NCBI GenBank assembly: GCA_903822545.1
Contig: CAIJPN010000136.1
Coordinates: 1-39,521, forward strand
Direction: 5' to 3'
DNA: 39,521 nucleotides
Origin: an uncultured Anaerolineae bacterium
GTDB lineage: Bacteria > Chloroflexota > Anaerolineae > Anaerolineales > Villigracilaceae
In this document: positions 10,463-25,482 of the stretch, piece by piece
Layout: each line of letters starts with the position of its first letter
Position numbering within the stretch: the stretch's first letter is position 1
Notes under the pieces: model-generated
What the model was told of the DNA's origin: nothing
The model's database searches: none
The model's input: the letters and a program-made list of their open reading frames with translations, nothing else
Made by a program: the position numbers and the translations under genes

Positions 10463-11971
10463 CTACCAGTATTCAGGTTTTCCCAGCCCAAGTTCGGCTG
10501 AATATTCAAACAGGCCGAAGAAGACCCAGTGCAGGGCCGTTTCGTAGTACGCGGTGTCATCATTCGTTGGGGTCTCATCGTTGTCATCCTCCATGAGCAG
10601 CCTGCCGGTCTCGATAACCACGCGAATATCAAACATTGCCCCTAAGCCGTCTTCCCAGCGACGAGTGTGCGCCACAACTTTCAGCCATCCATCTGAGCGC
10701 CAACCGTGATAGCGCAGGAATGTATTGATGACCGCCTGCATCCTGTGAATAATAGTGACCTGGTTCCAGCGCATGGTGCCTTTCCCGTAGTGCATGGCCT
10801 TCCGCAACTCATCGTACAATTTGGGGTGCATTTCCAGGTACTGTCTGAGCAAGTAAATCGAAGTTTTGGGGTAGGCAGACTGTCTGAACACTGTTTGCGA
10901 TGAGTGAAAGGATGCGGCATAGATCAGGCCGATGAGTTCAAAGAAACCAGGTTCGGGATCGCGCGATTCGTCCTCTTTGGCAGTCAACTTGAACTGCTGC
11001 CACAAGGCTTGTAGCACCGCCTTATCCTGGCTGGATGTGCCATAGGCCAGCAATTTCTCTGGCGTTTCGATGTTTTCGTCCTGCTGGGGTTCGCTGGAAT
11101 CGCCCAGACTGGTTTGCCCAAACACATCAACCCACTCAAGCTGGCCTGTGCCATCCCAATCAGGTTGATCCAGGAATTCCAACAAGGGCACAGCCAGGAG
11201 AGAAAATTTGAGTTGTTGGTCACGAAGGGACATCCGGGCTTTTCGCCAAATCCCAAGTGTCTTGTCGAATTCCTTGCCGCGCGACAGGTGTACCAGCATT
11301 CGGACTTCCCGCACGTAGGATTGCGACTCTGGCCTGCTGAAAAAATCCTGGCGGTTTCCCAGGCTTTCTACGATGCGTGGCATCGTGTGCCCGCTGGCGG
11401 CCTGTTCGACCTCGAAGATGAGCTTTTTACCACCGGAGATGGAAACCACATGATCGGGTCGCAACACACGTTTTCCATCAAAAGCCAGGGTTGCATCAGT
11501 CGTGATGTCCACGCCACATGCCTGGGCGACCAGGTGAACGTCGCTCATCGCCAGGGCGTGCAGGATGGTCAGGTCGGTGCTCAGGCTGGACGCATCGGCA
11601 TCATCATGCCCCAGGGCACGGAGCAGTCCGGCTCCCCCTTCGTCCAGCATATAAATCGCCGAAGGGCGTCCAGCATAGCCGGGGCGCGAAATAGAACGAT
11701 CCAGTTTGCGCAAGATTGGCGGGAAGCCGGAACATCTTTTGTTCCAACGCTCTACCAGGCGCTTGAGCGGCACGAATTCCAGGTTGGTGATTTTCTGCAA
11801 CTGTGTCGCGTTGACAACGCCTGTATGCCTGACCACATCCAGAGCTGTCTGCCACTGGCAATCTGGAAATCCTGTTTTCATGCAAGCCAGGAGTTCAGCA
11901 GCTTGCGCTTCATCCAGGCGAGCTGGTGGTTGTGTTGCGGGGAGACGGGTTTGTTGAGTTTGTCTGTTCAT
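10463..11971 (-). CDS. Replication-relaxation family protein
   Basis: 502 aa; ATG 11971 follows agaggtta. The N-terminal half shows a winged-helix-like region (ALDVVRHTGVVNATQLQKIT) and the stretch TDLTILHALAMSDVHL. It then has PDHVVSISGGKKLIFEVEQA, resembling the DNA-nicking or nuclease-like core of the replication-relaxation family (PF13814), found on plasmids and conjugative elements. The C-terminal ~230 residues are helical, lack a recognisable domain and end in an acidic segment (EDDNDETPTNDD). The family is thought to relax or process plasmid DNA near the origin. Its position at the end of a rep-dnaB-par operon fits that. Assignment is by motif resemblance. Confidence 0.55.
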   Translation of the reverse strand: MNRQTQQTRLPATQPPARLDEAQAAELLACMKTGFPDCQWQTALDVVRHTGVVNATQLQKITNLEFVPLKRLVERWNKRCSGFPPILRKLDRSISRPGYAGRPSAIYMLDEGGAGLLRALGHDDADASSLSTDLTILHALAMSDVHLVAQACGVDITTDATLAFDGKRVLRPDHVVSISGGKKLIFEVEQAASGHTMPRIVESLGNRQDFFSRPESQSYVREVRMLVHLSRGKEFDKTLGIWRKARMSLRDQQLKFSLLAVPLLEFLDQPDWDGTGQLEWVDVFGQTSLGDSSEPQQDENIETPEKLLAYGTSSQDKAVLQALWQQFKLTAKEDESRDPEPGFFELIGLIYAASFHSSQTVFRQSAYPKTSIYLLRQYLEMHPKLYDELRKAMHYGKGTMRWNQVTIIHRMQAVINTFLRYHGWRSDGWLKVVAHTRRWEDGLGAMFDIRVVIETGRLLMEDDNDETPTNDDTAYYETALHWVFFGLFEYSAELGLGKPEYW

Positions 11972-12033
11972 AAATAAATAACCTCTTATGTGTAGTTCAC
12001 TCTCAGTTTTAACAGGGGGGTTTTAACACCCTC

Positions 12034-12576
12034 TCAAGTCTCTCCAGTCAATGCCTTCAACCGCTTTTGTTGGGTAGCGATGATGTTGTTCTGTTGGGCG
12101 ATGTACTCTTTTTGCTCATTGATGGCGATGAGAAGATTTGTCATCTGCACTTTCAAATCGTCAATCTCATCCAACATGTCGTTTATGGGTGCGGTTTGTT
12201 CTTCGCGCATGGCACTTATTTCGCGCGCAGCTTTCGCATTTTCTTCACGGAGCCGGGCATTTTCGTTGATGATCAATTCGTGCCAGGTGTTAAATTTCTG
12301 ACCCTGACTATAGAGTTCTGCCTGGGATTGTCGCTTTTCGTTCTCCAGCGCCCTCGCAGAGTTTTTGTGCAGCTCTTTAACTTCATCGAAATGCTGGTTC
12401 AGCTTGTCAAACAGGCCCGATTTGAATGCAGCGACAACCGAATCCAGGGGTGCGCCTTGTTTAATCTCTACCAAAGCAACACGCACTCCCGGAACTTCGT
12501 GGCCTAGCATAAGTAACAATTCGTTCAACAATGCGCGTTGCGCTTGCTCATTGTCTCCCAAGATAAGGTAGGTCAT
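12034..12576 (-). CDS. Coiled-coil protein of unknown function
   Basis: 180 aa from ATG 12576, four bases after the TAA of the preceding gene (TAACAGAATG), so probably translationally coupled; there is no separate ribosome site. Residues 1-45 form a small domain (MTYLILGDNEQAQRALLNEL, LMLGHEVPGVRVALVEI). Two long heptad-rich segments follow (FDEVKELHKNSARALENEKR; then from ENARLREENAKAAREI to QKEYIAQQNNIIATQQ). No enzymatic motif was seen. It may be a structural or oligomeric partner of the partition or replication proteins encoded beside it. Confidence 0.6.
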   Translation of the reverse strand: MTYLILGDNEQAQRALLNELLLMLGHEVPGVRVALVEIKQGAPLDSVVAAFKSGLFDKLNQHFDEVKELHKNSARALENEKRQSQAELYSQGQKFNTWHELIINENARLREENAKAAREISAMREEQTAPINDMLDEIDDLKVQMTNLLIAINEQKEYIAQQNNIIATQQKRLKALTGET

Positions 12577-12580
12577 TCTG

Positions 12581-13003
12581 TTAGCGATTCTTTCGCTGGA
12601 GCTTTGTGTAATCGCATTCGGGGAGGTAAATGCGCTTATAGCCATCCCTGGCGTTTTCTGCTGCGAAATTCAAAATAGCCCCCACCGGTAGGCCCATGCC
12701 TTCCATGTGTCGCTTAAATCGCTCCACATAATTGTGAGGTGTTGGGCAATCCTGGGTTACAGCAACCGCCACCCGGCAGTCTACGACTATGTCGAACCTG
12801 CCGTATCCGATGGCGCTGTCATGGCGCACAATCACGGGCACATCTCTCGATGCGCAAATGTCAAAGTCTCGAAAGCGATCAAAAACTGCGTTTGCCAGTT
12901 GAAATTGGGTAAGGCCGGGGCGTGCTTTCATTTCTTCAAAGAGTGGGGAGTAGGCTTTCCAAATCAACCCGGTCAAATCTTCGTACAAGTACTGCGATGT
13001 CAT
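12581..13003 (-). CDS. GxxExxY-like (PD-(D/E)XK-related) protein, degenerate
   Basis: 140 aa from ATG 13003, with GGAGA 7 nt upstream. The stretch from RFDIVVDCRVAVAVTQ to HMEGMGLPVGAILNFA parallels GxxExxY proteins (PF13366), where the corresponding core reads ADIVV...VELK, then a helix, then GLxVGLLINF. The usual E-L-K catalytic triad is replaced by AVT, and the GxxExxY signature itself is absent. The nuclease is therefore probably inactive and kept, if at all, for nucleic-acid or protein binding. The stop codon is coupled to the coiled-coil gene. Resemblance is moderate. Confidence 0.45.
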   Translation of the reverse strand: MTSQYLYEDLTGLIWKAYSPLFEEMKARPGLTQFQLANAVFDRFRDFDICASRDVPVIVRHDSAIGYGRFDIVVDCRVAVAVTQDCPTPHNYVERFKRHMEGMGLPVGAILNFAAENARDGYKRIYLPECDYTKLQRKNR

Positions 13004-13033
13004 AATCATTCTCCATTCAGAACGTGGGATTTT

Positions 13034-13069
13034 TGGGAACCAGAAAATAGGCTCATTTTTTGGTTCCCA
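13034..13069. repeat. Hairpin tgggaacca / tggttccca
   Basis: Perfect 9-bp arms at 13034-13042 and 13061-13069 around an AT-rich 18-nt loop, between the ParR-like gene and the GxxExxY-like gene. It could be an attenuator or processing site in the operon. Confidence 0.45.
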
Positions 13070-13070
13070 G

Positions 13071-13304
13071 TTATTTGAGGAAATCATCAGCTGCAAAGAA
13101 CAATTCGTCATCCGAAACAAGTTCATCGGCATGGGAAATGTTCATTGCGCCGGTTCGCAAGGCAGTTTTCAGGGCAACAGCCCGCTTGCGAGGTGGCAAA
13201 CCGCCCAGGAACTCGATCAGGTCATCATCCTCGCCCACCCGCAGACGCAGGTGAACATGGAATTCCCAGGCTTTGCCTGTGGATACCGGGCGTCCGCGAG
13301 TCAT
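13071..13304 (-). CDS. Small ParR/RHH-like protein
   Basis: 77 aa. ATG 13304 overlaps the TGA of the preceding actin-like gene (TGATG), so the two are translationally coupled. A basic N-terminus (MTRGRPVSTGKAWEF) leads into HVHLRLRVGEDDDLIEFLGG and RKRAVALKTALRTGA. This strand-helix-helix order is what small centromere-binding RHH partners of plasmid actins look like. The C-terminus is acidic (DELVSDDELFFAADDFL), possibly the contact to the filament protein. The gene order, actin-like then RHH, matches ParM-ParR operons. The call depends strongly on context. Confidence 0.5.
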   Translation of the reverse strand: MTRGRPVSTGKAWEFHVHLRLRVGEDDDLIEFLGGLPPRKRAVALKTALRTGAMNISHADELVSDDELFFAADDFLK

Positions 13305-13555
13305 CACTTGCCCTTACGCGCCTGCTGGAGCAGGGTCAGGCGGTACAAACCGCGCGCAATCGCCTGGACAGGTTCATTGGGCATGAAAGCGCGGCCATTG
13401 AAGCGGTGTGGCAGGCTGTCTTTCAGCAGGATAGCTCCGCCATCCAGTACCATTGGTAGCACCTGGGATACAACTTCCAGGCCGCCAGGCGCGCCATATA
13501 GCTTGAAAGCGCCGTTTCCGGCATCAATGCCGAGGGGGGTGAAATTCTTTTTCAT
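13304..13555 (-). CDS. Short actin-like (ParM N-terminus-like) protein
   Basis: 83 aa; ATG 13555 follows aaggagtaattccagc. The N-terminus PLGIDAGNGAFKLYGAPGG resembles phosphate-binding loop 1 of actin-like plasmid segregation proteins (GIDxGNGxxK). Real ParM-type proteins are over 300 residues, so this is either a remnant with a large deletion or a distinct short protein. The remainder (LDGGAILLKDSLPHRF, EPVQAIARGLYRLTLLQ) reads smoothly and ends in a basic tail. It has a good ribosome site and is coupled to the following gene, which suggests it is still expressed. It cannot form a complete ATPase. Confidence 0.45.
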   Translation of the reverse strand: MKKNFTPLGIDAGNGAFKLYGAPGGLEVVSQVLPMVLDGGAILLKDSLPHRFNGRAFMPNEPVQAIARGLYRLTLLQQARKGK

Positions 13556-13595
13556 GCTGGAATTACTCCTTTTTACTTTTCAAAAACGGTTGAGA

Positions 13596-13617
13596 CGGCT
13601 CGATGCGGTTTGAGCCG
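13596..13617 (-). terminator. Weak terminator-like hairpin after the recombinase gene
   Basis: Arms cggctc and gagccg with a 10-nt loop. On the minus strand they are followed by tctcaaccgttttt. Confidence 0.35.
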
Positions 13618-13628
13618 GTTTGATTTGT

Positions 13629-14516
13629 TCATTCCGATAGGGTTGTCACGGCCAGTTCCAGGTCGGTTTCGCCGGGCGTGATGTAAAGCCGGGTGGTGTT
13701 CAGGCTTTCATGGCCCAGCAGTGCGGCCACTTTCTCCAGCGTTACGCCGCTATCGATCAGCGACTTGGCGAAGGTGTGACGACATACATGGCAGGTGACA
13801 TCCGGCAGGCCAGCCTGTTCGGCATAACGGGTCACAGCATTTTGGACGGAGCGGGGCTGCATCGGCTCGCCGCGCTGGCCGATGAAGAGGGCCTCACTGA
13901 CAATTTGCGGGCGGACTTCCAGCCATTGCTCCAGCATGGCGCGGGCGTCTTTGTTGAGCGGGACAACTCTTTGTTTCAGGCCCTTCCCGGCCCTCACCGT
14001 GAGCGAAGACTTCCGCTCGGTGAGAACCAGGTCGCCCACTCTCAGGTTGCAGAGTTCGGAAACTCGCAACCCGGTATTCAGGAGCAAAATCACCGAGACG
14101 GCGTCGCGCAGGCGCAACAGCCACAGGCGCGGGTAGCGCAGCCGGGCAGTTTGCAGGTCGGTGGTCACGGTTTGGATCAAGTCGCGGCGCTGCTTTTTGT
14201 CCAGCCATTTGGGGGCGAGCGAGACGGTTTCCACGCTTTTGATGCTGATGGCCGGGTTGTTGGGCATCAGGCCGGTTTGCGCAGCCCAGTTGCCAAAGGC
14301 GGCGATGGCGGCCAGTTTGCGGTTGATGGTATGGGCGGCGGTGCCGCTTTCCAGCAAGGAGGAGCGATATTCGCGCACATCGGCGGCGGTCAGGGCGGCC
14401 AGGTCTTTTTCCAGCCAGCGCGAAAGGACATTCAGGTCGTTGACATATCCGCGCACGGTGGCGGGAGAGCGATCAAGGGCGTGCAGGTGTTCGGAAAAAT
14501 CAGTAAGCTGGGTCAT
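13629..14516 (-). CDS. Tyrosine recombinase (Xer/phage-integrase family)
   Basis: 295 aa, the usual length for Xer-type recombinases. The N-terminal SAM-like core-binding domain covers about residues 1-85 (SPATVRGYVNDLNVLSRWL). The catalytic domain contains all key residues: Arg in LNTGLRVSELCNL, Lys in RAGKGLKQRVVPL, HxxR in CHVCRHTFAKSL, His in LLGHESLNTT and the nucleophile Tyr in TRLYITP. It starts 10 bp after dnaB and is co-directional with the replication genes. That position suits a plasmid dimer resolvase at least as well as an integrase. No att repeats were found next to it. Confidence 0.9.
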   Translation of the reverse strand: MTQLTDFSEHLHALDRSPATVRGYVNDLNVLSRWLEKDLAALTAADVREYRSSLLESGTAAHTINRKLAAIAAFGNWAAQTGLMPNNPAISIKSVETVSLAPKWLDKKQRRDLIQTVTTDLQTARLRYPRLWLLRLRDAVSVILLLNTGLRVSELCNLRVGDLVLTERKSSLTVRAGKGLKQRVVPLNKDARAMLEQWLEVRPQIVSEALFIGQRGEPMQPRSVQNAVTRYAEQAGLPDVTCHVCRHTFAKSLIDSGVTLEKVAALLGHESLNTTRLYITPGETDLELAVTTLSE

Positions 14517-14526
14517 GGGTTATCTC

Positions 14527-15873
14527 CTAGAATGGCATGGTTTCGTTCTTTTTCGCCAGGTCGGCAAAGCGGGTCAGGCGGGTATCGAAGAACAGGTCAA
14601 CGATCCCGGTTGGGCCACCGCGATGTTTGCCGATTTTGAACCGCGACACGTTGTCTTTTGTGTCTGGACGCCAGATAAAGGCCACCATGTCGGCATCGTT
14701 CTCGATGGCCCCCGACTCGCGCAGGTCGGAAAGTTCCGGCTCCTTGTCCGCCCGGACTTCCGATGCCCGGTTGAGTTGGGCCGCAGCCAGCACCGGGATG
14801 CCCAGTTCCATCGCCAGCAGTTTCAGCGAGCGTGAGCAATAGGCAACTTCCTGCTCGCGTTCCCTGAAATTGTTCCCACTTCCAGCCTGCATCAACTGGA
14901 GATAATCCACCACCAGCAAATCCAGCCCGTAGCGCGCCTGCATCTGGCTGGCAAGTGCCCGCAGCTTGGCCGGGGTAATCGCGGCAGCATCGCTCAGGAA
15001 AAGCTGGTCACGCTGAATGTCGTCCAGCGATGCAATAAAAACATCTACCTGATCGTCCTCCAGTGCCTTTTCGGTGAGGCTGGCAGCTTCTATGCCGGTG
15101 CGCGAGGCCATCATGCGCCCAATCAGTTCCCGGCGAGACATCTCCAGGGAGAACATCGCAACTTTCTTCCCGTTCTTGATGGCATCCAGCACCAACGTTT
15201 GCATCCAGGCCGATTTGCCCTGCCCAGGGCGGCCAGCGATTATATTCAGGGTGCCTTTCGGCAGGCCACCTTTGAGCACCTTGTCCACATCAGCCAGCCC
15301 GGAGGAAATACGCTGGCTTGTGACAGGTTTGCCTTCGGCGGCCAGTTGCCTGCGTTGCATAATGTCGTCGTACAGCTCACCGACGCCATCCACGAAATCC
15401 ACCAGCACGTCCGGCATGTCCACCTGCTTTGCCACTTCGTGCAAGGTTTTTTCGGCACCGGTCATTACGTCCGCCGCGTTCAGGTCGCGTGAGTCAAAAG
15501 CCAGCGTAGCAATTTTGTTGGCAGCCTGGAGCAGTAGACGGCGGGCATGATCACCGCGCACAACTTCGGCATATTCGGTAGCGTGTAAGGTCGTCGGCAC
15601 TTGGTTGAGCATGGCCGTGAGGTAAGCCGGGCCGCCAATATCGTCCAACCGCCCCATGTCGTCCAGTTCTTCGGAGACGGTGAGAATATCAATTCCCGCG
15701 CCGCGCTTATCCAGGCGGGCGTAGGCTTCCCAGATAAAGCGGTGCCGGTGGATGTAAAAGGCTTCCGCAGATAAGGCCACTGCGCTGAAAACCAGCGAGT
15801 TGATCAAGACCGAGCCGATCAAGGCTTCTTCGGCCTCGCGGCTGTGCGGCAGTTCGGGTGCAGGGGTGGTCAT
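14527..15873 (-). CDS. dnaB: Replicative DNA helicase DnaB
   Basis: 448 aa from ATG 15873, with cggaggaaaa immediately upstream; the longer frame overlapping the previous gene is not needed. The N-terminal helical domain (SREAEEALIGSVLIN, YIHRHRFIWEAYARL, GGPAYLTAMLNQVPTT) is typical of DnaB. The RecA-like motor has Walker A AGRPGQGKSAW, FSLEMSRRELIGRM, Walker B LLVVDYLQLM and the arginine-finger-containing end (FKIGKHRGGPTG). It unwinds the replication fork as a hexamer. It lies 22 bp downstream of an initiator gene that contains iterons. The replicon thus carries its own helicase instead of only borrowing the host's. Confidence 0.95.
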   Translation of the reverse strand: MTTPAPELPHSREAEEALIGSVLINSLVFSAVALSAEAFYIHRHRFIWEAYARLDKRGAGIDILTVSEELDDMGRLDDIGGPAYLTAMLNQVPTTLHATEYAEVVRGDHARRLLLQAANKIATLAFDSRDLNAADVMTGAEKTLHEVAKQVDMPDVLVDFVDGVGELYDDIMQRRQLAAEGKPVTSQRISSGLADVDKVLKGGLPKGTLNIIAGRPGQGKSAWMQTLVLDAIKNGKKVAMFSLEMSRRELIGRMMASRTGIEAASLTEKALEDDQVDVFIASLDDIQRDQLFLSDAAAITPAKLRALASQMQARYGLDLLVVDYLQLMQAGSGNNFREREQEVAYCSRSLKLLAMELGIPVLAAAQLNRASEVRADKEPELSDLRESGAIENDADMVAFIWRPDTKDNVSRFKIGKHRGGPTGIVDLFFDTRLTRFADLAKKNETMPF

Positions 15874-15895
15874 TTTTCCTCCGGGTGATGTGGGT

Positions 15896-17869
15896 TTATT
15901 GAGCAAGTCCCAGGCGCTCGGTACGCTTCTGGGCCTTTTGTGCCAGGTTTCGTTCTTTCCAGGCCGCTCCCTTTGCTTCGAGGGCGGCTTTTTCTTCGGG
16001 CGTAAACGTTTTGACAGGCGTGGCGGGCACATCGGCGGCCAGGGCTGCCTTTGTTTCGGCCACTTTCCTGTCGCTCTGTCGCCGGACAGACATGGCCGCT
16101 GCGACGACATTCACGAGTGAGCGAGGGGATACAACGTTGAAATAGTGATTTTTCCAGATGTCATGAACAGCGTTGATCGCTTCGGCGGGTGTCACGCCAT
16201 ACTCGCCAGCGGTAGCTTTAAGCTCATTCACGTCATCGAACCATTTTTTCGATTTGTAATTTTTGCCGCGCGGCATCGCCGGGGGAATGATCCCGAATTG
16301 CGAACAGAAAACCCCAACGACTTCGCCCACTTCGGGGGAGTAAACCTTGCCAAAGGCTGCAATGCGGGCGGCAATCTCTTCGGGGGTCAGGCCAGCCGAT
16401 TTGGATGTTTCGGCAGGTTGGAGAGCAGGCTTGGGTTCGTTGGCGGGTTTCGGGGATTCCGCAGCGCGTTTGGGGGGTTCCGGTTTTGGAGTCTCGCTGG
16501 TCGGAGCAAAAGCATCCGGGTTTTTTGGTTTTGAATTTCCAACACACACAGGCGCGTCAGCGCCAGAGACGCCAGTTTTAGATTCGAGCGATTTAGGCGC
16601 ACGGTAGTTTTTAATAGCTTTAATGCTTAATAGCTTAAAAGCCTGTGCCACTTGCGCCACCCGGATGTGCCATTCGCGCCACTCGGATGTGCCATTTGCG
16701 CCACTGATGTGTGCCACTTGCGCCACTCCGATTGTGCCATTTGCGCCACTGATGTGTGCCACTTGCGCCACTCCGATTGTGCCATTTGCGCCACTGATGT
16801 GTGCCACTTGCGCCACTTTGTCAACGAGTCTGTCAAAAGCGTCCCCATCGTCAGCGTTAATCGACTGTGCTATCACACGCAGTTCAACCGGAATTTCATC
16901 GGTTAGTACGTCGAGGGTACGCGGAGCGTCCCATTTGCCATTTTCAATCAGCCCGCTCTCGTTCAGGTGGATGTAAATCTGCAAGACCGGATCGCGCAGC
17001 CACTCCCAAATCGTCTTGGGCCGCGACAGGCCCAGCCAGTTAGACATTTCCGCGTAGCCGCCACTTACAACTACCTGGCCTCGGTCTTTCCCGCGACTGT
17101 TCCAACATTTGTCCCGCAGGATCGAGAGCAACCATCCTTGCCCGGTTCCCAAAAGCGGCAGCAGATTTCGAATAAATGACAGATGCAAGTGCAGCGTATC
17201 GCTTACAGGCATAATGTGGCTGGTGAGTTTTTCGGCCAGCCCCCGGATTTCCGCATCCGGCAAATCGTTGAAAATTTCACGCAACAAGGCGGATACCATC
17301 ATGGGGGTTTCGCTTTCAGACGCGCCAGGCTCGGCTAGTAGTTTGTCCAGCAATATGGTGCAGGCAGCGGACACCACTTCGGTGGGGCCACCGCACGCTT
17401 CCAGGTTGTCAATCAACCAACGACGCAGAGCGAAAGTATCGGGGCCAGTCAGCGGCAACGACATTGAAACCACGTATCGATTGGCTGCGCGACGTGGGGC
17501 ATCGGATGTGTTCTGCCATTGTGGTTTTTCTTCCACCCATCGCACTAACCCGGACAACTTTTCCCAAGTCTCCGGGGTCGCAATCCGACGCCAAAAAGTA
17601 CGGCGAGATGCTCCGCTCAGGGCCGCGATAGACGCACCAGAAAAGCGCCCGGTTCGCTGGCCGTTTCGTGCGCCCAGATTGTAGGCAGACTGGCGAAAAG
17701 CGATATACAGCCAGGCCAGTTCAGGGCCAATCAACGGCAGAAAGCGCAAAAAGTAAGCATTTACAACAACGACCTGGCCGGGGCGAACAGCTTTCTCGTA
17801 GAGCATATCGCCCCAGTCTGCCTCTAGCGCAAGGTCGGTTTCGGGGAGAGTAGTATCAAGTTGTTTCAT
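15896..17869 (-). CDS. Long replication-initiator-like protein with internal iteron array
   Basis: 657 aa from ATG 17869, with taggatg upstream. The first ~370 residues parallel the next gene upstream: YFLRFLPLIGPELAWLYIAF, a helix-turn-helix near residue 85 (IAALSGASRRTFWRRI) and a second one near residue 300 (GGYAEMSNWLGLSRPKTIWEWL). Two winged-helix units of this kind are typical of plasmid and phage initiators. After about residue 350 comes a repeated segment (VAQVAHISGANGTIG three times, then EWREWH) encoded by the iterons. A Pro/Lys/Glu-rich linker follows, then a C-terminal helical domain (TPAEAINAVHDIWKNHYFNV), perhaps for helicase loading. The family could not be named; the initiator role rests on architecture, iterons and the adjacent dnaB. 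Confidence 0.65.
   Translation of the reverse strand: MKQLDTTLPETDLALEADWGDMLYEKAVRPGQVVVVNAYFLRFLPLIGPELAWLYIAFRQSAYNLGARNGQRTGRFSGASIAALSGASRRTFWRRIATPETWEKLSGLVRWVEEKPQWQNTSDAPRRAANRYVVSMSLPLTGPDTFALRRWLIDNLEACGGPTEVVSAACTILLDKLLAEPGASESETPMMVSALLREIFNDLPDAEIRGLAEKLTSHIMPVSDTLHLHLSFIRNLLPLLGTGQGWLLSILRDKCWNSRGKDRGQVVVSGGYAEMSNWLGLSRPKTIWEWLRDPVLQIYIHLNESGLIENGKWDAPRTLDVLTDEIPVELRVIAQSINADDGDAFDRLVDKVAQVAHISGANGTIGVAQVAHISGANGTIGVAQVAHISGANGTSEWREWHIRVAQVAQAFKLLSIKAIKNYRAPKSLESKTGVSGADAPVCVGNSKPKNPDAFAPTSETPKPEPPKRAAESPKPANEPKPALQPAETSKSAGLTPEEIAARIAAFGKVYSPEVGEVVGVFCSQFGIIPPAMPRGKNYKSKKWFDDVNELKATAGEYGVTPAEAINAVHDIWKNHYFNVVSPRSLVNVVAAAMSVRRQSDRKVAETKAALAADVPATPVKTFTPEEKAALEAKGAAWKERNLAQKAQKRTERLGLAQ
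16605..16640. other. AT-rich repeat region, candidate DNA unwinding element
   Basis: Two copies of ttaatagctt (16611-16620 and 16627-16636), 16 bp apart, lie in an AT-rich stretch that touches the first iteron. It is inside the initiator gene, where the surrounding DNA is GC-rich. The layout resembles the 13-mer regions of iteron origins. Confidence 0.6.
16644..16817. repeat. Eight iterons (tgtgccayttgcgccact) inside the initiator gene
   Basis: 18-bp units begin at 16644, 16666, 16688, 16710, 16733, 16755, 16778 and 16800. Spacing is 22, 22, 22, 23, 22, 23 and 22 bp, about two helical turns. Because 22 and 23 are not multiples of three, the same DNA is translated in all three frames, as VAQVAH, SGANGT and EWREWH. 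DNA sequence and helical phase are kept while protein sequence changes. This fits iteron binding by the initiator, as in RK2- or F-type plasmids, with the origin placed inside the initiator gene as in lambda O. Confidence 0.8.
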
Positions 17870-17877
17870 GGAACATC

Positions 17878-18750
17878 CTATTGGATTGTCGCTCGAAGAA
17901 TAGTGAAAGTGCGTGGCGAATCCCACTGTCCAACGTTTTCGCTGTCAACCACCTGAACATAGGATTGCATCGCCGGGCTATTCAGCCACTGATAAATCAA
18001 TTCAGGATTCGACAAGCCCAACCATCGCGCCATTTCTTCATAACCACCTTCCACAGTGACACGATTATCCTGGCTTGTGTAATCCAAGATGGCAAGTAGC
18101 CATACCTGTCCATCCCCAAGTGTATTTCGCAGGTTCCCTAAATATTCTAGCGGCAAGCACAAAAATTCGTTTTCGGGCATGATACGAGCGGTCAGGAGTG
18201 CATCGAGCTTTGAGATTTGCGCTTCTGTAAATTCTCCAAAACCGCGCAATACGTCACCGATAGTCTCATGAGAGTGATACACCATCGCATCGGGATCGGC
18301 CAAGTCATCGGCGTCAGCTAGTAAATCATCAATTGGAGCGCGACTACAAGCAGCCGCTACTGATGAGGCAGTTGTCGCATGGCCCCCAGATAAACGGTAA
18401 CCCATTGCAAAAGCATCTGGGCTGACAAGCGGCAGCGATACCTGTACCAAAAAGTGAAGTGTTACTATTCCTTGCCCGTTTTCTATGCGCCATACCAAGC
18501 CTTCCAATTTGCACCAGGGTTCTTCCGAATAAATAAAATCCAAAAGAGAATCAACTGATATGCCAAGCAGATCAGCGATATATGGGGTATGCAAATTAGC
18601 CGAACTTCGACCTTCGTACACGCCATTTGCGTACATAGCCTGGCGGAACGCAAGGTAATACCAGGCCAGTTCCGGGCCAATTACAGGCAAGAAACGCAGG
18701 AAATAAGCTGGTACAAAAATAGGATCGGGGTTATTTTTTGATGTTTCCAT
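17878..18750 (-). CDS. Short paralogue of the initiator-like protein
   Basis: 290 aa from ATG 18750, with aaaaaggagc upstream. It is collinear with the N-terminal ~370 residues of the next gene. Shared motifs are YFLRFLPVIGPELAWYYLAF, an internal HTH-like segment (IADLLGISVDSLLDFI), LGDGQVWLLAIL, GGYEEMARWLGLSNPELIYQWL and WDSPRTFTIL. It lacks the iteron-encoded repeats and the C-terminal domain. It starts after a ~240-bp gap containing the second repeat array, and it ends 8 bp before the long initiator gene. It could be a regulator or competitor of the full-length initiator; both roles are inference. Confidence 0.65.
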   Translation of the reverse strand: METSKNNPDPIFVPAYFLRFLPVIGPELAWYYLAFRQAMYANGVYEGRSSANLHTPYIADLLGISVDSLLDFIYSEEPWCKLEGLVWRIENGQGIVTLHFLVQVSLPLVSPDAFAMGYRLSGGHATTASSVAAACSRAPIDDLLADADDLADPDAMVYHSHETIGDVLRGFGEFTEAQISKLDALLTARIMPENEFLCLPLEYLGNLRNTLGDGQVWLLAILDYTSQDNRVTVEGGYEEMARWLGLSNPELIYQWLNSPAMQSYVQVVDSENVGQWDSPRTFTILRATIQ

Positions 18751-18783
18751 GACGAAAGTAGCTCCTTTTTCTTTTTTCGGGAT

Positions 18784-18870
18784 AAGTGTGAAAACGCGCC
18801 AGGAAGCCCTGTGTTGGCGGGTTTTTAGCAGACGGGAAAACATAAGGACAGGTGTATTTCCGCGCCCCTA
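18784..18870. repeat. 85-bp direct repeat, copy 2
   Basis: Partner of 8079-8165. This copy is bracketed by an 11-bp inverted repeat, ccaggaagccc (18799-18809) and gggcttcctgg (18872-18882). It forms the leader of the short initiator gene. Confidence 0.65.
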
Positions 18871-18888
18871 CGGGCTTCCTGGGGGCGC

Positions 18889-18967
18889 AACCTAAGCAGC
18901 AACCTAAGCGAGTATCCAAGCAGAAACCAAGCAAAACCTAACTGGTATCTAAGCAGCATTGCTTAGG
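18889..18967. repeat. Short tandem repeat array, candidate iterons or partition site
   Basis: Degenerate cores of cctaagc start at 18891, 18903, 18915, 18926, 18937 and 18948, 11-12 bp apart. An inverted copy gcttagg closes the array at 18961-18967. It lies just downstream of the ParA-partner gene and upstream of the short initiator gene. That is a usual place for a parS-type centromere, an operator or an origin. Confidence 0.6.
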
Positions 18968-18988
18968 TCATTTTGGGCACATAAAAAA

Positions 18989-19702
18989 TCACACGTTTTT
19001 CGGCGGAAACTCCGATTCTGGTTTTTTGACCTTCTCCCAGGTGGTGACTTTTATGCTTGCTTCGGCCTCTGGTTTCAGCCGAAACTCGCAGGCGATATAG
19101 TCGTCCAGCGCAATCTCCAACAAGCGAATAACTACCTCCCCTATCGGGATGATGTGCTTCATCGGACTCTGCGCCGTTGCGCCATCCTGAGTGCCAGCAA
19201 TTGCCCGGATGCGACTATCGATTTCCGCAGGCCAGCGAAAGGTCAGCGATTTTGCGCGAACCTTTTCTGCCGGTTTCTTTTTCTTGATCGGGTCGCGCAG
19301 TTCCAGCTTTTCTTTCTCCCAGGGGCGTTCTTCTGACTTTTCCCAATTCATGATGGTCATGTGCCCACGCCCTCGCGGGTTGGTGCGAGGCGTAATCAAT
19401 TTGGGATTTTCATCAACGCGAGAAAATGCCCAGCTCATCATGGCCTTTGCGATGTTGTCTACCGTTGTAGCATCGGCCCGAGCATTCCCTTTTTCATCAA
19501 ACTGCACAATACTCAGCATGGCTTTTTGCAGTCGCTGGCTGCGCTCGTGTAAGCTGACAGGGATGTGATACGAATAAGTGCGGCTGCCCCAGGTGCGTTT
19601 GCGCGCAACGCTATCAGGCGGCGGCATGAACCTTTCCACGATGCTGTTCATTTCAGGAACAGTGGCAAACGGGTTTCGACGATCAAACGCTGGCTTTGTC
19701 AT
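18989..19702 (-). CDS. Probable partition partner of ParA (C-terminal RHH-like)
   Basis: 237 aa from ATG 19702, with ggaggttatagg upstream; three bases separate it from the parA stop. The N-terminal half contains YSYHIPVSLHERSQRLQKAML, a possible first RHH. After a charged Lys/Glu-rich linker comes KSLTFRWPAEIDSRIRAIAG followed by IPIGEVVIRLLEIALDDYI, a strand-helix-helix pattern. A conventional ParB nuclease-like or HTH domain is not seen. Its position directly after parA and beside a short repeat array makes a centromere-binding role likely, by context rather than by family match. Confidence 0.5.
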   Translation of the reverse strand: MTKPAFDRRNPFATVPEMNSIVERFMPPPDSVARKRTWGSRTYSYHIPVSLHERSQRLQKAMLSIVQFDEKGNARADATTVDNIAKAMMSWAFSRVDENPKLITPRTNPRGRGHMTIMNWEKSEERPWEKEKLELRDPIKKKKPAEKVRAKSLTFRWPAEIDSRIRAIAGTQDGATAQSPMKHIIPIGEVVIRLLEIALDDYIACEFRLKPEAEASIKVTTWEKVKKPESEFPPKNV

Positions 19703-19705
19703 TTC

Positions 19706-20449
19706 CTATAACCTCCGAATAGCATCAACCAAGCCCCGGTAATCCTGGGCTACACCGCAGCCTGGGTCATATTCCCAAATTGTGCGCGCCACAGCCGCAC
19801 ACTCGCGCATGACCGTTGCCCGACGAATGGGGGCCAGCGTATGCTTCTTGTCCGCACGCAACGCTTCCAGGCACGTCGCGCTTTCCTTCGTCACTGTGTC
19901 GTAAAGCGTCGGCAGGATGCCAACCAGCAAGCCATCCCACTTGTACCTATCTGCCAGCCCGTTGAGGAACATCATCGTCTTGCCCAGCGATTCCACTGCC
20001 AGGAAGTCGGTTGCAACCGGGATCAAAACATGCGTGGCGGCCCAGGCAGCTCGCTCTTGCAGGCCGCCAAGTGAAGGGCTGGTGTCGATGATGATGTAAT
20101 CGTATTTGGGGAGCAGCGGGCTGATTGCCCGTTGAATGGCACCTACCGGGCGAGACTCGGCGTTCATTAAGGTTTGCGCGGACGATGTGTGCGCGTCCCC
20201 AGGAATGATGTCAAGGTTTTCGCGCGCATGGCGCACAAGCGAGTCTGCGCGCACGCCGATGCCCACCAGCAGGTTATAGATGCACGGTTCGGATTCAACT
20301 CCCAACACGGTTGCAACCTGGCCTTGCGGATCAAGGTCAACGATTAAAACGCGCTTCCCGGCCAGCGCCAGGCCGTGCGCCAGGGTGGCGCAGGTGGTTG
20401 TTTTGGCAACACCCCCTTTTTGGTTGGTGACAGTGATGATGTGAGGCAT
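19706..20449 (-). CDS. parA: ParA family partition ATPase
   Basis: 247 aa. Deviant Walker A NQKGGVAKTTT lies at residues 9-19, VLIVDLDPQGQ is the Walker A' motif, and YIIIDTSPSLGGL is the Walker B region. The short length and absence of an N-terminal DNA-binding domain place it in the small (type Ib or Soj-like) ParA group. It positions plasmid DNA by ATP-dependent nucleoid binding together with a centromere-binding partner, probably the next gene. It begins 4 bp after the preceding small gene. Confidence 0.95.
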   Translation of the reverse strand: MPHIITVTNQKGGVAKTTTCATLAHGLALAGKRVLIVDLDPQGQVATVLGVESEPCIYNLLVGIGVRADSLVRHARENLDIIPGDAHTSSAQTLMNAESRPVGAIQRAISPLLPKYDYIIIDTSPSLGGLQERAAWAATHVLIPVATDFLAVESLGKTMMFLNGLADRYKWDGLLVGILPTLYDTVTKESATCLEALRADKKHTLAPIRRATVMRECAAVARTIWEYDPGCGVAQDYRGLVDAIRRL

Positions 20450-20453
20450 TTAT

Positions 20454-20684
20454 CTACTCCTGCAAAGTGTCGATCAGATTCAGTTCGGTTTTGCCGCTGC
20501 GCTCATCGAACCGAGCGCCGGGGATGACAGCGATGGCAACGATGTTTCCGTCAGCATCGCGGGCGTTTTTGACGCGGACGCCAGCCCACCGGTTGACCGC
20601 AGCAAGGGCAGACAGGACGAAGGTGAACGCTTCGGCAGCGTGACTTTCGCGTGTCCCGCCACCCTTGCGGCCCGGAACCCGCAC
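20454..20684 (-). CDS. Small protein upstream of parA, unknown
   Basis: 76 aa from a GTG at 20684, with gcggag 9 nt upstream. The frame is open further upstream (LHLDDALPLIAEPLQ) but has no other start codon there, so the true start is uncertain. The sequence is basic at first (RVPGRKGGGTRES), then helical (AAEAFTFVLSALAAVNRW), then has strands (DGNIVAIAVIPGARF). It ends 4 bp before parA, in the same operon. No family was recognised. Confidence 0.45.
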   Translation of the reverse strand: MRVPGRKGGGTRESHAAEAFTFVLSALAAVNRWAGVRVKNARDADGNIVAIAVIPGARFDERSGKTELNLIDTLQE

Positions 20685-20755
20685 CTGGAGAGGCTCCGCG
20701 ATGAGCGGAAGCGCATCATCCAGGTGCAGGTTGTTCGATGGGGCAGGGGGCTGGC

Positions 20756-21838
20756 TTAGGGAAAATTTGGCTTGTGGCCGTTTCCGCCGAAACCAACAGG
20801 GGCGGGCGGGGTCAGCGAAACCGTGACGCCCACCGGAACAGGCGGCTCCATCACTTCGGCGTACACGGTGCGGAAGTTTTCCACCGTCATGTCGGCGGGC
20901 AGCAGACTGACCTGCATGAACTTCTGGTAGGTCACGTCTGGGGTAGCGTTGATCTGGGAAAACAGCGTCACCAGTTCATCGGCAGTAACGTTCATGTAGG
21001 CCAGAAGGTCGGCCAGGGCGTAAACGTGGGGGATGCGCACCGTCATGACGCCAGCGGGGGTGTGCGCAGTTTTCAGGGCCGCGATACGGGCGCGCATTTG
21101 GTCAGGCGAAGCGGTGGGAGCAGCAGGGGCGGCGGGCTGTTCGAGCGCGCGCACACCAGTTTTCAGCACACGATTCTTCAAGACGGTATTCAGCTCGTTT
21201 TCCAGCCCTTCCTGCTCCATGCGGATGGCAGCCAGCAGTTTGGCCTTTTCCAGGATGTCAGCGCGGGCCAGGGTTTCAGCTTCCAGACGCAAGACCTGGC
21301 GGCTCAGTTCATCCGACTCGGCCATCTCGACATTGTGGGCGTGGTCTGCCTTGCGGCGCGCCCGGCGTTCAGCAGTCTGCGGGCTGGTCATGTGGTAGAT
21401 AAAACCGGCCACCACGTTCAGCACCACCACCAGCGGGACAGCCACAACCGCGATGCTGCCGATGGTCTTGCTCAACACTTCGTTGTGGGATGCGCCGCCG
21501 TACATCAGGGCGTCCGCGGTGGAAGTCAGGATCACGCCGAGCAGGTCAAAGATGAAAAAGCCCATTGCTACGGCGTCCTGGTATTTGGTGCTGGAGCCGA
21601 ACATCCAGACCACCGACCAAAGCACAGCGCCGATGTCCAGGCCCCACAAGCCAACCATTGCGATCAGTTCCATGCCGGACGGGACGGAAGTGGTGAGGAA
21701 GTCGTAGCTGCGCCAGCCGGTGTAGACCAGCAGGACAATATCCAGGATAAGCACCATGATGTCGCCTGCGTTCAGGCCACCGTGGTCGGTTTTGATGTCT
21801 TCGCCCCGCAGGGAGTCAATCAGGGTTTTGGTAGTCAT
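20756..21838 (-). CDS. Polytopic membrane protein with coiled coil, unknown
   Basis: 360 aa; ATG 21838 overlaps the TGA of the preceding gene. Four hydrophobic segments lie in the first ~150 residues (IMVLILDIVLLVYTGW, LIAMVGLWGLDIGAVLW, AMGFFIFDLLGVILT, IAVVAVPLVVVLNVVAGFIY). A charged coiled coil follows (ERRARRKADHAHNVEMAESD, then LEAETLARADILEKAKLLAA). Next is an alanine/proline linker and a C-terminal soluble domain (RIPHVYALADLLAYMNVTAD). The soluble part is presumably cytoplasmic. With the next two membrane proteins it forms a block that might be a membrane complex of the element, but no secretion or conjugation motif was seen. Confidence 0.6.
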   Translation of the reverse strand: MTTKTLIDSLRGEDIKTDHGGLNAGDIMVLILDIVLLVYTGWRSYDFLTTSVPSGMELIAMVGLWGLDIGAVLWSVVWMFGSSTKYQDAVAMGFFIFDLLGVILTSTADALMYGGASHNEVLSKTIGSIAVVAVPLVVVLNVVAGFIYHMTSPQTAERRARRKADHAHNVEMAESDELSRQVLRLEAETLARADILEKAKLLAAIRMEQEGLENELNTVLKNRVLKTGVRALEQPAAPAAPTASPDQMRARIAALKTAHTPAGVMTVRIPHVYALADLLAYMNVTADELVTLFSQINATPDVTYQKFMQVSLLPADMTVENFRTVYAEVMEPPVPVGVTVSLTPPAPVGFGGNGHKPNFP

Positions 21839-22407
21839 GTGTTTCTCCTTGTGATTTTCGAGATGGTTCCTGGCAGCCAGGTAAAGGCCGGGCCATCCAG
21901 GTGGAAGGTTTTCCGCTCACGCAGCAGGCGCAAGCGGATGGCGATGTAGAACAACAGCAGCGCGGCTGTGGCAGGGGGCAGTACCGCAAGGAACAAGTCC
22001 GCGTATTGCCACTGCGTCAGGGATGGGAGGCCCAGTCTGGTTGCGAGCAGGGAGAGAACCCCGCCGATTGCCAGGCCGCCCCAGATGTCCTGTTTCCCGC
22101 GCCGCTGGAGCAGGAAGCCCACCCATCCCACCATCGTCAGGATGACGACGAATTGCAGGGTAAGGACAGGGAAGGGGCGGGAGAAGGGGGAGTACAGGTT
22201 GTCGATGGCAACCATCAGCGTGTACGCGCCCGCCAGCCAGACCATCACGCTTGCCACTCGCAAGAGCCAGGGCAGCGCCAGCAGCAGGGCCGCGACCAGC
22301 GCCAGGAACAGGATGGTGATGAACTTCCACAAGGCGGCCAGCCTTGCCCGGATGTCAGCTTGCAAGCGGGCGGCGGTTTCGTCAGGAGCGGGGGAAAATT
22401 CATTCAT
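21835..22407 (-). CDS. Small polytopic membrane protein, unknown
   Basis: 190 aa. It has an N-terminal charged helix, then about five hydrophobic segments (FITILFLALVAALLLALPWL, VMVWLAGAYTLMVAI, VLTLQFVVILTMVGWVGFLL, GGLAIGGVLSLLATRLGL, LFLAVLPPATAALLLFYIAI) and a basic C-terminus. It overlaps both neighbouring genes by a few bases, so the three membrane proteins are tightly coupled. No family was recognised. Confidence 0.6.
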   Translation of the reverse strand: MNEFSPAPDETAARLQADIRARLAALWKFITILFLALVAALLLALPWLLRVASVMVWLAGAYTLMVAIDNLYSPFSRPFPVLTLQFVVILTMVGWVGFLLQRRGKQDIWGGLAIGGVLSLLATRLGLPSLTQWQYADLFLAVLPPATAALLLFYIAIRLRLLRERKTFHLDGPAFTWLPGTISKITRRNT

Positions 22408-22888
22408 GGCGGGGTGAATCGCCCCCTTTCTTTTTGCCGTTTGCGAGATGGTGGTTGAAGTTCATCATTTCGTTGATAAAAACAAATACTTCCCCAAATA
22501 CGCAAACGCCAAGAAATTGCAGGCCGAAAATGGAGTAGACCAGGTAGCCAGCCGTAGCCAGCGTGTCGGCGTGCCGAAAGAAATACAGCGCGTACAAAAT
22601 CCCGGCTACGATGAAGGCCGCGATGGACGCTTCGCCCAGGAGCAGGGCGATTTTCAGCCGGATGTAGAAGGTGGCATTCCTGAATTCACCGAAGGTGCGC
22701 GGACGGGCAGCGTGGCTGGTTGACTGGTATGCTTCGGCGCGGGCCATGATCTCGGCCCCGGATGGGCCGGGGAAGGTAGGGTCAAGGGCCTTGTCCAAGA
22801 TTGCGCGGGCAGCCAGTTTGGCGCTGGCAGAATTGAAGCCGGTAGGGCCGAGCCTGTTGGGGGGAAATTGGATTTGACGGGTAGCCAT
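22400..22888 (-). CDS. Membrane protein, unknown
   Basis: 162 aa from ATG 22888, with aaaggaacacc upstream. The soluble N-terminal ~75 residues include GPTGFNSASAKLAARAILDK and AAR-rich segments. Two membrane helices follow (LLLGEASIAAFIVAGILYALYF and LVYSIFGLQFLGVCVFGEVFVFI). The tail is basic (HHLANGKKKGGD). It overlaps the next gene by 8 bases. No family was recognised. Confidence 0.55.
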   Translation of the reverse strand: MATRQIQFPPNRLGPTGFNSASAKLAARAILDKALDPTFPGPSGAEIMARAEAYQSTSHAARPRTFGEFRNATFYIRLKIALLLGEASIAAFIVAGILYALYFFRHADTLATAGYLVYSIFGLQFLGVCVFGEVFVFINEMMNFNHHLANGKKKGGDSPRHE

Positions 22889-22914
22889 TTTAGGTGTTCC
22901 TTTCCTGGTTGGGG

Positions 22915-22944
22915 ATTTCGCACTCATCGAAATGAGTGCGAAAT
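22915..22944 (-). repeat. Intergenic hairpin 1 (atttcgcactcat stem, TTCG loop on minus strand)
   Basis: Perfect 13-bp stem with a 4-nt loop that reads TTCG on the transcribed strand, a very stable tetraloop. Related hairpins lie at 23250-23271 and 23610-23639. Confidence 0.7.
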
Positions 22945-22957
22945 TTGGCCGGTGGGT

Positions 22958-23224
22958 TTACGCTTGCGCCTTCTCTGTGAGCGAGGTGCAAATCTCGTCC
23001 AGCTTGGCCCAGTTGTTGCTCATCGAGCAAATGATCATCGCGTCTGCCATCGGCTTACTGATGCCCAGTTCTGCGTTCAGGGTGTCTACGAACTCCTGGG
23101 ACTGCTTACCGGCGTCAGTTTTGTAATAACCATCTTTGCCGTAGCGGACGACAATAACTTCGCCATTCGCTTGCAGGCGCGAGTAGCAGAAGGCGGGGCG
23201 AGTGGATGACGGATCGAGTGGCAT
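22958..23224 (-). CDS. Small protein, unknown
   Basis: 88 aa from ATG 23224, with gaaaggagacc upstream. It begins MPLDPSSTRPAFCYSRL, continues with strands (NGEVIVVRYGKDGYYKTD) and ends with a helix (FVDTLNAELGISKPMADAMI). It lies between two members of the intergenic hairpin family. No family was recognised. Confidence 0.55.
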   Translation of the reverse strand: MPLDPSSTRPAFCYSRLQANGEVIVVRYGKDGYYKTDAGKQSQEFVDTLNAELGISKPMADAMIICSMSNNWAKLDEICTSLTEKAQA

Positions 23225-23249
23225 AAGGTCTCCTTTCATTTTTTCCTTT

Positions 23250-23271
23250 CGCACACATTGAAATGTGTGCG
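23250..23271 (-). repeat. Intergenic hairpin 2 (cgcacacat stem)
   Basis: 9-bp stem cgcacacat / atgtgtgcg with loop tgaa. It is located between two small genes, upstream of a ribosome site. Confidence 0.65.
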
Positions 23272-23279
23272 GAATTCAG

Positions 23280-23597
23280 TTAGGCATTGTTGGGGCCGTA
23301 CAGATACACAGCGGCATCATCCAGCGCCGCGCTAGTCATGTTTTGAGCTTTCCCAACAGAAATGTGAAAAACTTTTTCGCCACGTCGCTTTTCTGCGACC
23401 CAACGGCCATTCTCACGTTTGATCAGGCGAAAATCGCCGAAACCAGTCTTGCACTCCAGGGACTGTAGTTGCTCCATAGCAGCGCAAAATCGTTCGCCGC
23501 CAATTGCAGCCGGATCACGGTATCCAATGCCCAGTTCGCGGCAAATCAGGTACAGCTTGCTGAAATCTCGGTGGTCTTGTTCAATCACTGCATCCAT
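23280..23597 (-). CDS. Small protein, unknown
   Basis: 105 aa from ATG 23597, with cggagaccc upstream; an earlier in-frame start would lie within the hairpin and is unlikely. It begins MDAVIEQDHRDFSKLYLI and has a helical middle (FCAAMEQLQSLECKTG). The C-terminus has strands (FRLIKRENGRWVAEKRRG). No family was recognised. Confidence 0.5.
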   Translation of the reverse strand: MDAVIEQDHRDFSKLYLICRELGIGYRDPAAIGGERFCAAMEQLQSLECKTGFGDFRLIKRENGRWVAEKRRGEKVFHISVGKAQNMTSAALDDAAVYLYGPNNA

Positions 23598-23609: not shown

Positions 23610-23639
23610 TTTTCGCACACATTTCAATGTGTGCGAAAA
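23610..23639 (-). repeat. Intergenic hairpin 3 (ttttcgcacacat stem)
   Basis: Perfect 13-bp stem with a 4-nt loop, 8 bp after the lipoprotein stop and 13 bp before the next start. The stem core equals that of hairpin 2, with the loop inverted (ttca against tgaa). Confidence 0.7.
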
Positions 23640-25002: not shown

Positions 25003-25482
25003 ATGATGACAACTATGAAACCGATTGAAATCAAAATCTCTGGCGATATTCAAAAATCTCCGCAGGAAATATGCTCCGCAATACTCGATACAAATCGCTG
25101 GACAGAATTTACCGGCTACTCCATCCTGCCAGGAATTGAAAGCGCCCATTTTGAAACCAAAACCCAGGGCATTGTGGGCTCAAGAATCAGTGTGAAGAAC
25201 AAAGATGGTTCATCCCACATTGAAGAAATCATTGAGTGGGATGCGCCCCATCAAGTAGCAATGAAATTCCAGGATTTCAACGGAGTCGTTAAGAACCTGG
25301 CGTCGCATTTTATCGAAACGTGGAGTTTCCAGCCATCAGACAATGGCACACGTGCCACCCGGATGATGGCTTTTTATCCCAAGGGGATTTGGGCATGGCT
25401 GGTACTGTTTCCAATCTCAAGGCTGATGAAAACGGCCTTTGAACAGGATTTCTTGAAACAAGGCGGAAAGCTTGGAACATAA
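25003..25482 (+). CDS. SRPBCC (polyketide cyclase/START-like) family protein
   Basis: 159 aa from ATG 25003; ATG 25015 (MKPIEIKIS) is an equally good start, and neither has a clear ribosome site. The sequence shows IQKSPQEICSAILDTNRWTE, the glycine-containing loop and strands (GIVGSRISVKNKDGSSHIEE, WDAPHQVAMKF) and a long C-terminal helix (LVLFPISRLMKTAFEQDFLK). This is the fold of SRPBCC lipid- or ligand-binding proteins. It is followed after 27 bp by an MDR oxidoreductase. The ligand is unknown. Confidence 0.75.
   Translation: MMTTMKPIEIKISGDIQKSPQEICSAILDTNRWTEFTGYSILPGIESAHFETKTQGIVGSRISVKNKDGSSHIEEIIEWDAPHQVAMKFQDFNGVVKNLASHFIETWSFQPSDNGTRATRMMAFYPKGIWAWLVLFPISRLMKTAFEQDFLKQGGKLGT

Follow-up and report, generated by a model that had tools for sequence, protein, structure and literature searches.

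Replication origins that lie within the gene of their own initiator are already known from lambda O and from RepA_N plasmids. In phage lambda, ori is described as a set of iterons with an AT-rich region in the middle of the O gene (PMC7466680). In pSK41-type RepA_N plasmids, the origin and its Rep boxes are reported to be central in rep, where the boxes encode a dispensable linker from the N-terminal DNA-binding domain to the C-terminal domain (PMC5703833), and in the satellite PLE, by the account in PMC7145576, a RepA_N initiator drives replication from repeats in a non-coding region. For iteron plasmids, iterons of 17-22 bp are reported, with cooperative binding that is sensitive to half a helical turn (PMC4980987), and domain I of E. 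coli DnaA is described as binding DnaB (PMC6127211).

Here we analyzed a window of 39,521 bases, which is an entire contig (C136) of a 5.5-Mb genome assembled in 237 contigs; the host is probably one of the Anaerolineae. Eight direct repeats inside an initiator gene of this window very probably serve an integrated plasmid-like element as its replication origin. The window resembles lambda O in having iterons and an AT-rich tract inside the initiator gene. It may also resemble pSK41-type RepA_N plasmids, since its repeats lie mid-gene and encode a stretch of low predicted confidence. Unlike lambda, it has a resident DnaB and not a loader such as P, and ParA and an integrase are encoded alongside. 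The original prediction had likened the locus to lambda O; that likeness holds, but in-gene origins extend beyond lambda to the pSK41-type RepA_N plasmids (PMC5703833). The new part is the family: in-gene iteron origins appear to be the rule in predicted tandem winged-helix initiators of Anaerolineae, with DnaA domain I and resident DnaB as partly alternative partners.

Gene content of the element

The right part of the contig holds ordinary chromosomal genes (NADH dehydrogenase, ABC transporter, AMP-binding enzyme). Its middle part encodes, all on the minus strand, an integrase, DnaB, the initiator, an initiator paralogue, a small gene and ParA:

13629-14516, minus strand: tyrosine recombinase/integrase (Pfam Phage_integrase, 4.3e-37)
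14527-15873, minus strand: resident replicative helicase DnaB, 448 aa (Pfam DnaB_C, 1.7e-73; DnaB, 1.1e-25)
15896-17869, minus strand: initiator gene, 657 aa from the ATG at 17869 (open reading frame and homologue family)
16073-16357, minus strand: C-terminal domain common to lambda-O-like proteins, the proposed DnaB-recruiting part (6 loci, family search)
16880-17776, minus strand: predicted tandem winged-helix DNA-binding region, residues about 32-330 (AlphaFold2 models against PDB)
17878-18750, minus strand: winged-helix-only initiator paralogue (42% identity over initiator-frame residues 51-345)
18989-19702, minus strand: ParA-linked partner gene, possibly ParB-like (homologues between parA and the initiator in several relatives)
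19706-20449, minus strand: ParA partition ATPase (Pfam AAA_31, 6e-38; PHROG ParA, 2e-48)

The open frame of the initiator begins with a GTG at 17926, and the ATG at 17869, which has AGGA upstream, is the likelier start. The ATG of dnaB (15873) lies 22 nt past the initiator stop codon (15896-15898); the host genome has a separate dnaB on contig C157. Directly upstream of the initiator, the paralogue is its sister in the tree, on a long branch, and is possibly an antagonist or copy-control protein, which might bind the initiator's iterons too and restrain initiation. No flanking direct repeat of at least 18 bp was recognised as an attachment site within 7000-27500, six window proteins had no match in PADLOC, and searches for tRNAs and for Rfam matches at gathering score returned none.

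Iteron array within the initiator gene

Eight 18-mers on the same strand (TGTGCCAYTTGCGCCACT) occupy 16644-16817 and are spaced 22-23 bp apart, and the interval 16605-16817 of the original prediction covers the array together with the AT-rich repeat that it abuts:

16611-16642: AT-rich 16-bp double repeat adjoining the iterons, a candidate DNA unwinding element (repeat and AT content)
16644-16661: iteron 1 (TGTGCCACTTGCGCCACC), closest to the AT-rich tract, 2 mismatches to consensus
16666-16683: iteron 2, 1 mismatch
16688-16705: iteron 3, 0 mismatches
16710-16727: iteron 4, 1 mismatch
16733-16750: iteron 5, 0 mismatches
16755-16772: iteron 6, 1 mismatch
16778-16795: iteron 7, 0 mismatches
16800-16817: iteron 8, 1 mismatch

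All copies have a single orientation and differ from the consensus (TGTGCCATTTGCGCCACT) at 0-2 positions each. The steps between them are 22, 22, 22, 23, 22, 23 and 22 bp, and Tandem Repeats Finder (TRF) scored the array at 278 for a period of 45 and at 190 for a period of 22. The codon phases of the iterons, in order, are 2, 1, 0, 2, 0, 2, 0 and 2, and three frames are therefore used. When the codons of the gene were shuffled, the word count averaged 2.4 and reached at most 4, compared to 8 observed (0 of 100 shuffles as high). No further copy with up to four mismatches was present on either strand of the 39.5-kb window, and the single match of the array region in the host genome (E ≤ 0.001) was the array itself. 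The two halves of the AT-rich repeat (16611-16626 and 16627-16642) are 88% alike, and AT content is 70% in the 50 bp after the array compared to 45% for the open reading frame.

These are the marks of an iteron origin, namely similarly oriented direct repeats, each about 17-22 bp long and spaced close to the helical period, here with an AT-rich tract alongside (16611-16642) that may serve as the unwinding element. Exact DnaA boxes (TTWTNCACA) were absent from 10753-23362. The window itself thus bears out what had been predicted of it: eight 18-bp repeats at 22-23 bp spacing in an initiator-like gene, an adjoining AT-rich double repeat with dnaB just beyond, and one DNA word translated in three frames, with VAQVAH, SGANGT and EWREWH all present in the protein.

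Predicted fold of the initiator

At E ≤ 1, the initiator had no Pfam match to Rep_3 (PF01051), RepA_N (PF06970) or Phage_rep_O (PF04492); PF06970 was likewise absent from 10 relatives at E ≤ 0.1, NCBIfam named no family for the initiator, and no sequence in the PDB was close to it (best E 0.22).

The full-length AlphaFold2 model was confident over residues 32-330 only. Its best Foldseek match was pi with iteron DNA (E 0.01 for the full model, 5.5e-3 for the region alone), and there was no match at E ≤ 0.001. Among the VIA-align matches listed, only RepE-type, pi and RctB initiators exceeded 170 aligned residues. The best alignment of the full model had a Z score of 9.4 and an rmsd of 4.3 over 191 residues; that of the region alone, with a Z score of 7.9 and an rmsd of 4.0-4.3 over 185-192 residues, was in the tool's middling range, and other matches included CRP-like single domains (up to Z 6.5) and RctB (6.0). 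These moderate scores are suggestive, not proof, of a DNA-binding half that is like RepE and pi in fold.

Compared with Rep_3 initiators (RepE of F, pi of R6K) and RctB, the window protein would share a tandem winged-helix arrangement of about 180-195 residues, as modeled; it differs from Rep_3 in having no PF01051, in having iterons in the coding sequence ahead of an extra C-terminal domain, and in that many relatives have DnaA domain I. From RepA_N it differs by the missing PF06970, by two predicted winged helices, by a family with DnaA domain I or its own DnaB, and by its occurrence in Chloroflexota, and from lambda O by the missing Phage_rep_O match and the predicted tandem winged helix.

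A family of initiators with clustered words

Searches recovered homologues from 26 of 396 genomes in the class, from 49 of 152 in the taxonomic family and from 31 of 400 in the phylum, where each count includes the window's genome and the phylum matches outside the class are partial. Named relatives are from Anaerolineae or Chloroflexota and include an Anaerolinea MAG (L125), a Brevefilum MAG (L130) and the isolate Bellilinea caldifistulae GOMI-1 (L137). Plasmid, phage and viral collections contained no match. Integrated copies and contigs are the only forms observed, and among 18 whole contigs none had an exact terminal overlap of 15-300 bases that would point to a circular form. Some relatives are damaged, such as L185, which is split by a TAG. 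The initiator family is large and apparently undescribed: open-licence papers concerned with replication in Chloroflexi or Anaerolineae, or with domain I of plasmid initiators, yielded nothing on it.

Removing copies at least 90% alike left 61 distinct rows, 48 of which have parA in the fetched locus. Word clusters were counted in the 56 rows with enough frame after the domain; the window's paralogue, L180, L158, L159 and L042 have too little. In 55 of the 56, the window among them, a single cluster close behind the winged-helix region holds 4-11 copies of a 16-bp word, and for these 55 no codon shuffle in 100 reached the observed count. In L037, where 2 of 100 did, four words are scattered and form no real cluster. 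The weakest clusters are those of L038 and L047, with just 4 words, and of L036 and L177, with uneven steps. The position of the first word ranges from 9 residues ahead of the end of the profile to 46 past it, and the main cluster of L062 begins further on. As a control, words were counted in 119 further ORFs of the window and 28 loci; the top count was 5, in 4 ORFs, with no regular spacing. None of 16 more distant relatives (ORFs) outside the class had a regular cluster; 4 (L106, L107, L109 and L120) exceeded their own null maximum, none of them with regular spacing.

Spacings follow the helix more than the codon. The most common of 290 steps were 22 bp (94), 23 bp (70) and 24 bp (53), followed by 33, 21, 45 and 31 bp, and 179 are not multiples of 3. 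In 39 clusters the word uses two frames, in 10 it uses three and in 7 just one. The common alternation of 22 and 23 bp adds up to 45 bp, or 15 codons, so the frame is kept by the pair and not by the single word; with steps of 22 bp (L181, L179, L182 and L184), word phases rotate through three frames. A minority keeps the frame with steps of 21 or 33 bp (for example, L040, L059, L041, L183 and L035). The original prediction had proposed comparing repeat phase in homologues, and a loss of phasing with the peptide kept is not the pattern: most homologues keep the helix-like spacing and change both word and peptide.

AT-rich DNA follows the clusters, with a family mean of 65% AT in the next 50 bp compared to 45% for the ORFs. 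By 40-bp percentile, 51 of 56 members fall in the top 5%, although these percentiles lean high because the best of about 55 offsets was taken, a bias that the plain 50-bp means do not have. The AT-rich stretch also contains CWCTTW words, a motif picked after seeing the sequences, at a mean of 1.16 compared to 0.19 in codon shuffles; such words are present in 38 of 56 members, 14 of which have them in more than one frame.

DNA-level conservation and alternative explanations

We compared synonymous divergence along 25 related genes of one group, chosen for holding the word at least twice, a choice that favours conservation (15 of 15 clade rows in the tree qualified). Divergence was lower in the iterons than in the winged-helix region in all 299 binned pairs out of 300 (12/12, 49/49, 33/33 and 205/205 per distance bin), and lower than in the C-terminal part in all pairs but 2 of the closest 12. 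In the 49-pair bin, synonymous divergence was 0.02 for iterons, 0.37 for the winged-helix region and 0.09 for the AT-rich tract, and for the 205 most distant pairs it was 0.31, 0.65 and 0.30, respectively. Across 54 clusters, word distance rises with winged-helix distance (Mantel ρ = 0.73, 0 of 2,000 permutations), a correlation that common descent alone could explain in part. The claim that selection acts on the DNA is supported by these relatives, in which word and peptide vary while position and helix-like spacing stay, and so, as far as sequence can tell, is the claim of an iteron origin inside the initiator gene.

In the mechanism that we propose, the tandem winged-helix region would bind the eight iterons, which would lie on nearly one face of the helix, and the initiator would melt the adjoining AT-rich double repeat. 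Its C-terminal domain would then bring the element's own DnaB, the product of the next gene, to the opened DNA, and replication would start there; translation of the iterons would yield merely a linker joining the winged-helix half to the C-terminal half. This reading draws on the number, phasing and uniqueness of the repeats, their AT-rich neighbour, their conservation at the DNA level and the linkage of the C-terminal domain to dnaB, together with a predicted winged-helix fold. Alternatively, the repeats might serve the protein as a tandem-repeat linker whose DNA similarity is a remnant of duplication. The part of the protein that the array encodes does have low predicted confidence, as expected of a linker, and 7 of 56 clusters keep one frame, but the other 49 use two or three frames for the word and synonymous sites are suppressed between genomes. 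The frames used and the suppressed sites disfavour a peptide-level explanation, and we regard the linker account as extremely improbable.

Iterons can act in control too, and the array could be a site of autoregulation, incompatibility or ParA-dependent partition for the initiator or the ParA partner, with replication starting elsewhere. The adjoining parA and partner gene and a second set of short repeats upstream of the window's paralogue speak for this. An origin is a better fit to the AT-rich DNA and recurring CWCTTW words right after the cluster in most members and to the initiator-like predicted fold, and the array lies mid-gene and not at a promoter, which leaves a control site improbable. 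Somewhat more weight, though still well short of favour, goes to the window copy being a relic, an integrated element that no longer replicates itself in a family that does have in-gene origins, which is compatible with the reading at the family level. The contig runs on into housekeeping genes, and damage such as the TAG in L185 occurs among relatives, but in the window the initiator, DnaB, ParA and integrase frames are open, existing family profiles match over most of their length, and the eight iterons are nearly identical.

A chromosomal origin was considered and is disfavoured. In single-contig genomes, the copy nearest to the best dnaA match is 71 kb (G027), 1.31 Mb (G213) or 1.36 Mb (G351) away, and in the window's genome dnaA is on a different contig (C60). 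In draft genomes, a copy shares a contig with dnaA at 32 kb (G223:C10) and at 60 kb (G233:C3). We read the copies 32-71 kb from dnaA in G223, G233 and G027 (C1) as chance, though nearness could matter.

Proposed helicase partners

The C-terminal half of lambda O meets the helicase side. Among 10 relatives of the window initiator, Pfam identified the DnaA domain I family DnaA_N (PF11638) in 6, a likeness to DnaA, at the N terminus of L125, L137 and L080 and at the C terminus of L060, L061 and L039; it was absent from L126, L047, L059 and L062, and for none of the ten was a Bac_DnaA or DnaA DNA-binding family reported. With a home-made profile built from six members, domain I was found in 49 of 59 tree rows; dnaB is nearby in 2 of the 49 and not in the other 47. 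Unlike this majority, the window protein has no domain I by Pfam or by the home-made profile.

Four members combine a neighbouring dnaB with the absence of domain I (the window, L122, L044 and L047), and three have both (L127, L164 and L198, the last found later). Leaving out the window's paralogue and the truncated L035, domain I is missing in 4 of 6 dnaB-linked members compared to 4 of 51 others (Fisher P = 0.0023, or 0.0039 without 7 members having less than 1.5 kb downstream); adding L198 gives 4 of 7 (P = 0.0048, or 0.0079 without the 7 short loci). All of these P values are too optimistic because the rows are related. On the tree, the domain I/dnaB label changes at least three times, perhaps by a single gain and two losses. 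Of the four members with neither domain I nor dnaB, three belong to one genus (L040, L041 and L059).

The window-type C-terminal domain occurs in 6 of 152 genomes of the taxonomic family (the window, L122, L197, L198, L199 and L200), with weak matches in the five other loci (E 6.4e-7 to 8.4e-4). In all six loci dnaB follows directly; in L197 and L200 the locus ends within it. In L199 the domain stands behind an N-terminal Phage_rep_O domain (1.3e-10), a likeness to lambda O. From these linkages we infer that the window's C-terminal domain may recruit the resident DnaB and that domain I may recruit the host's.

The original prediction of a plasmid-like version with its own DnaB stands in that a resident DnaB adjoins the initiator; it is amended in that the type recurs in Anaerolineae and most members found have DnaA domain I and no dnaB beside them. 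Over the whole family, we give even odds to a wider reading: an unnamed, large family of Anaerolineae mobile elements would combine origin, origin-binding protein and helicase recruiter within a single gene some 2 kb long. By default, the recruiter would be a DnaA domain I that was captured, can move from one terminus to the other and would draw the host DnaB; some lineages would have lost it and use their own DnaB instead, the window's lineage with a lambda-O-type C-terminal domain. If true, phage-like and plasmid-like replicons would be able to exchange helicase recruitment as a module.

A specific prediction on how initiators recruit helicase, and one that can be tested, follows from the partial alternation between DnaA domain I and a resident DnaB. 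The family would provide a mobile replicon type for Chloroflexota and more than 50 natural initiator-origin pairs with diverging words, useful for deriving rules of DNA recognition, and one relative has a host in culture (Bellilinea caldifistulae GOMI-1, L137). An in-gene origin is also a compact candidate vector where hosts have few genetic tools.

Other features of the window and its relatives

L197, L199 and L200 encode short lambda-O-like or HTH proteins with a C-terminal domain as in the window and dnaB next to it, resembling an exchangeable domain-helicase cassette; none has a word count above its null maximum or a regular cluster. In L055, two adjoining large ORFs (1657-5040) that look recombinase-like, of the serine type by eye, lie beside the parA-initiator module, where the window has a tyrosine integrase.

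Several other repeats were observed in the window. A 22-nt stretch at 25344-25365, outside the element in the chromosomal part, is 82% like an iteron reference and is not among the 18-mers with up to four mismatches. Repeats of 12 bp of the CCTAAGCAGCAA type lie at 18889-18970, between the paralogue and the ParA-linked gene, and are a possible operator or partition site. A 93-bp stretch occurs twice (18767-18859 and 8062-8154, 80% alike), upstream of two different genes, and elsewhere in the genome has just a weak 38-bp match on C157. A 28-bp near-palindrome (for example, TTTCGCACACATTTCAATGTGTGCGAAA) is found at 22916-22943, 23247-23274 and 23611-23638, with 86-100% identity to the reference; these copies are perhaps operators of small genes nearby.

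Two big adjoining genes at 1520-4567 and 4927-7851 have no PADLOC match; their translations resemble NACHT-type NTPases with a C-terminal formylglycine-enzyme-like part. In addition to the chromosomal DnaB and that of the window, a partial DnaB lies at a contig edge of the same genome (G000:C49:1-396) and hints at a further element.
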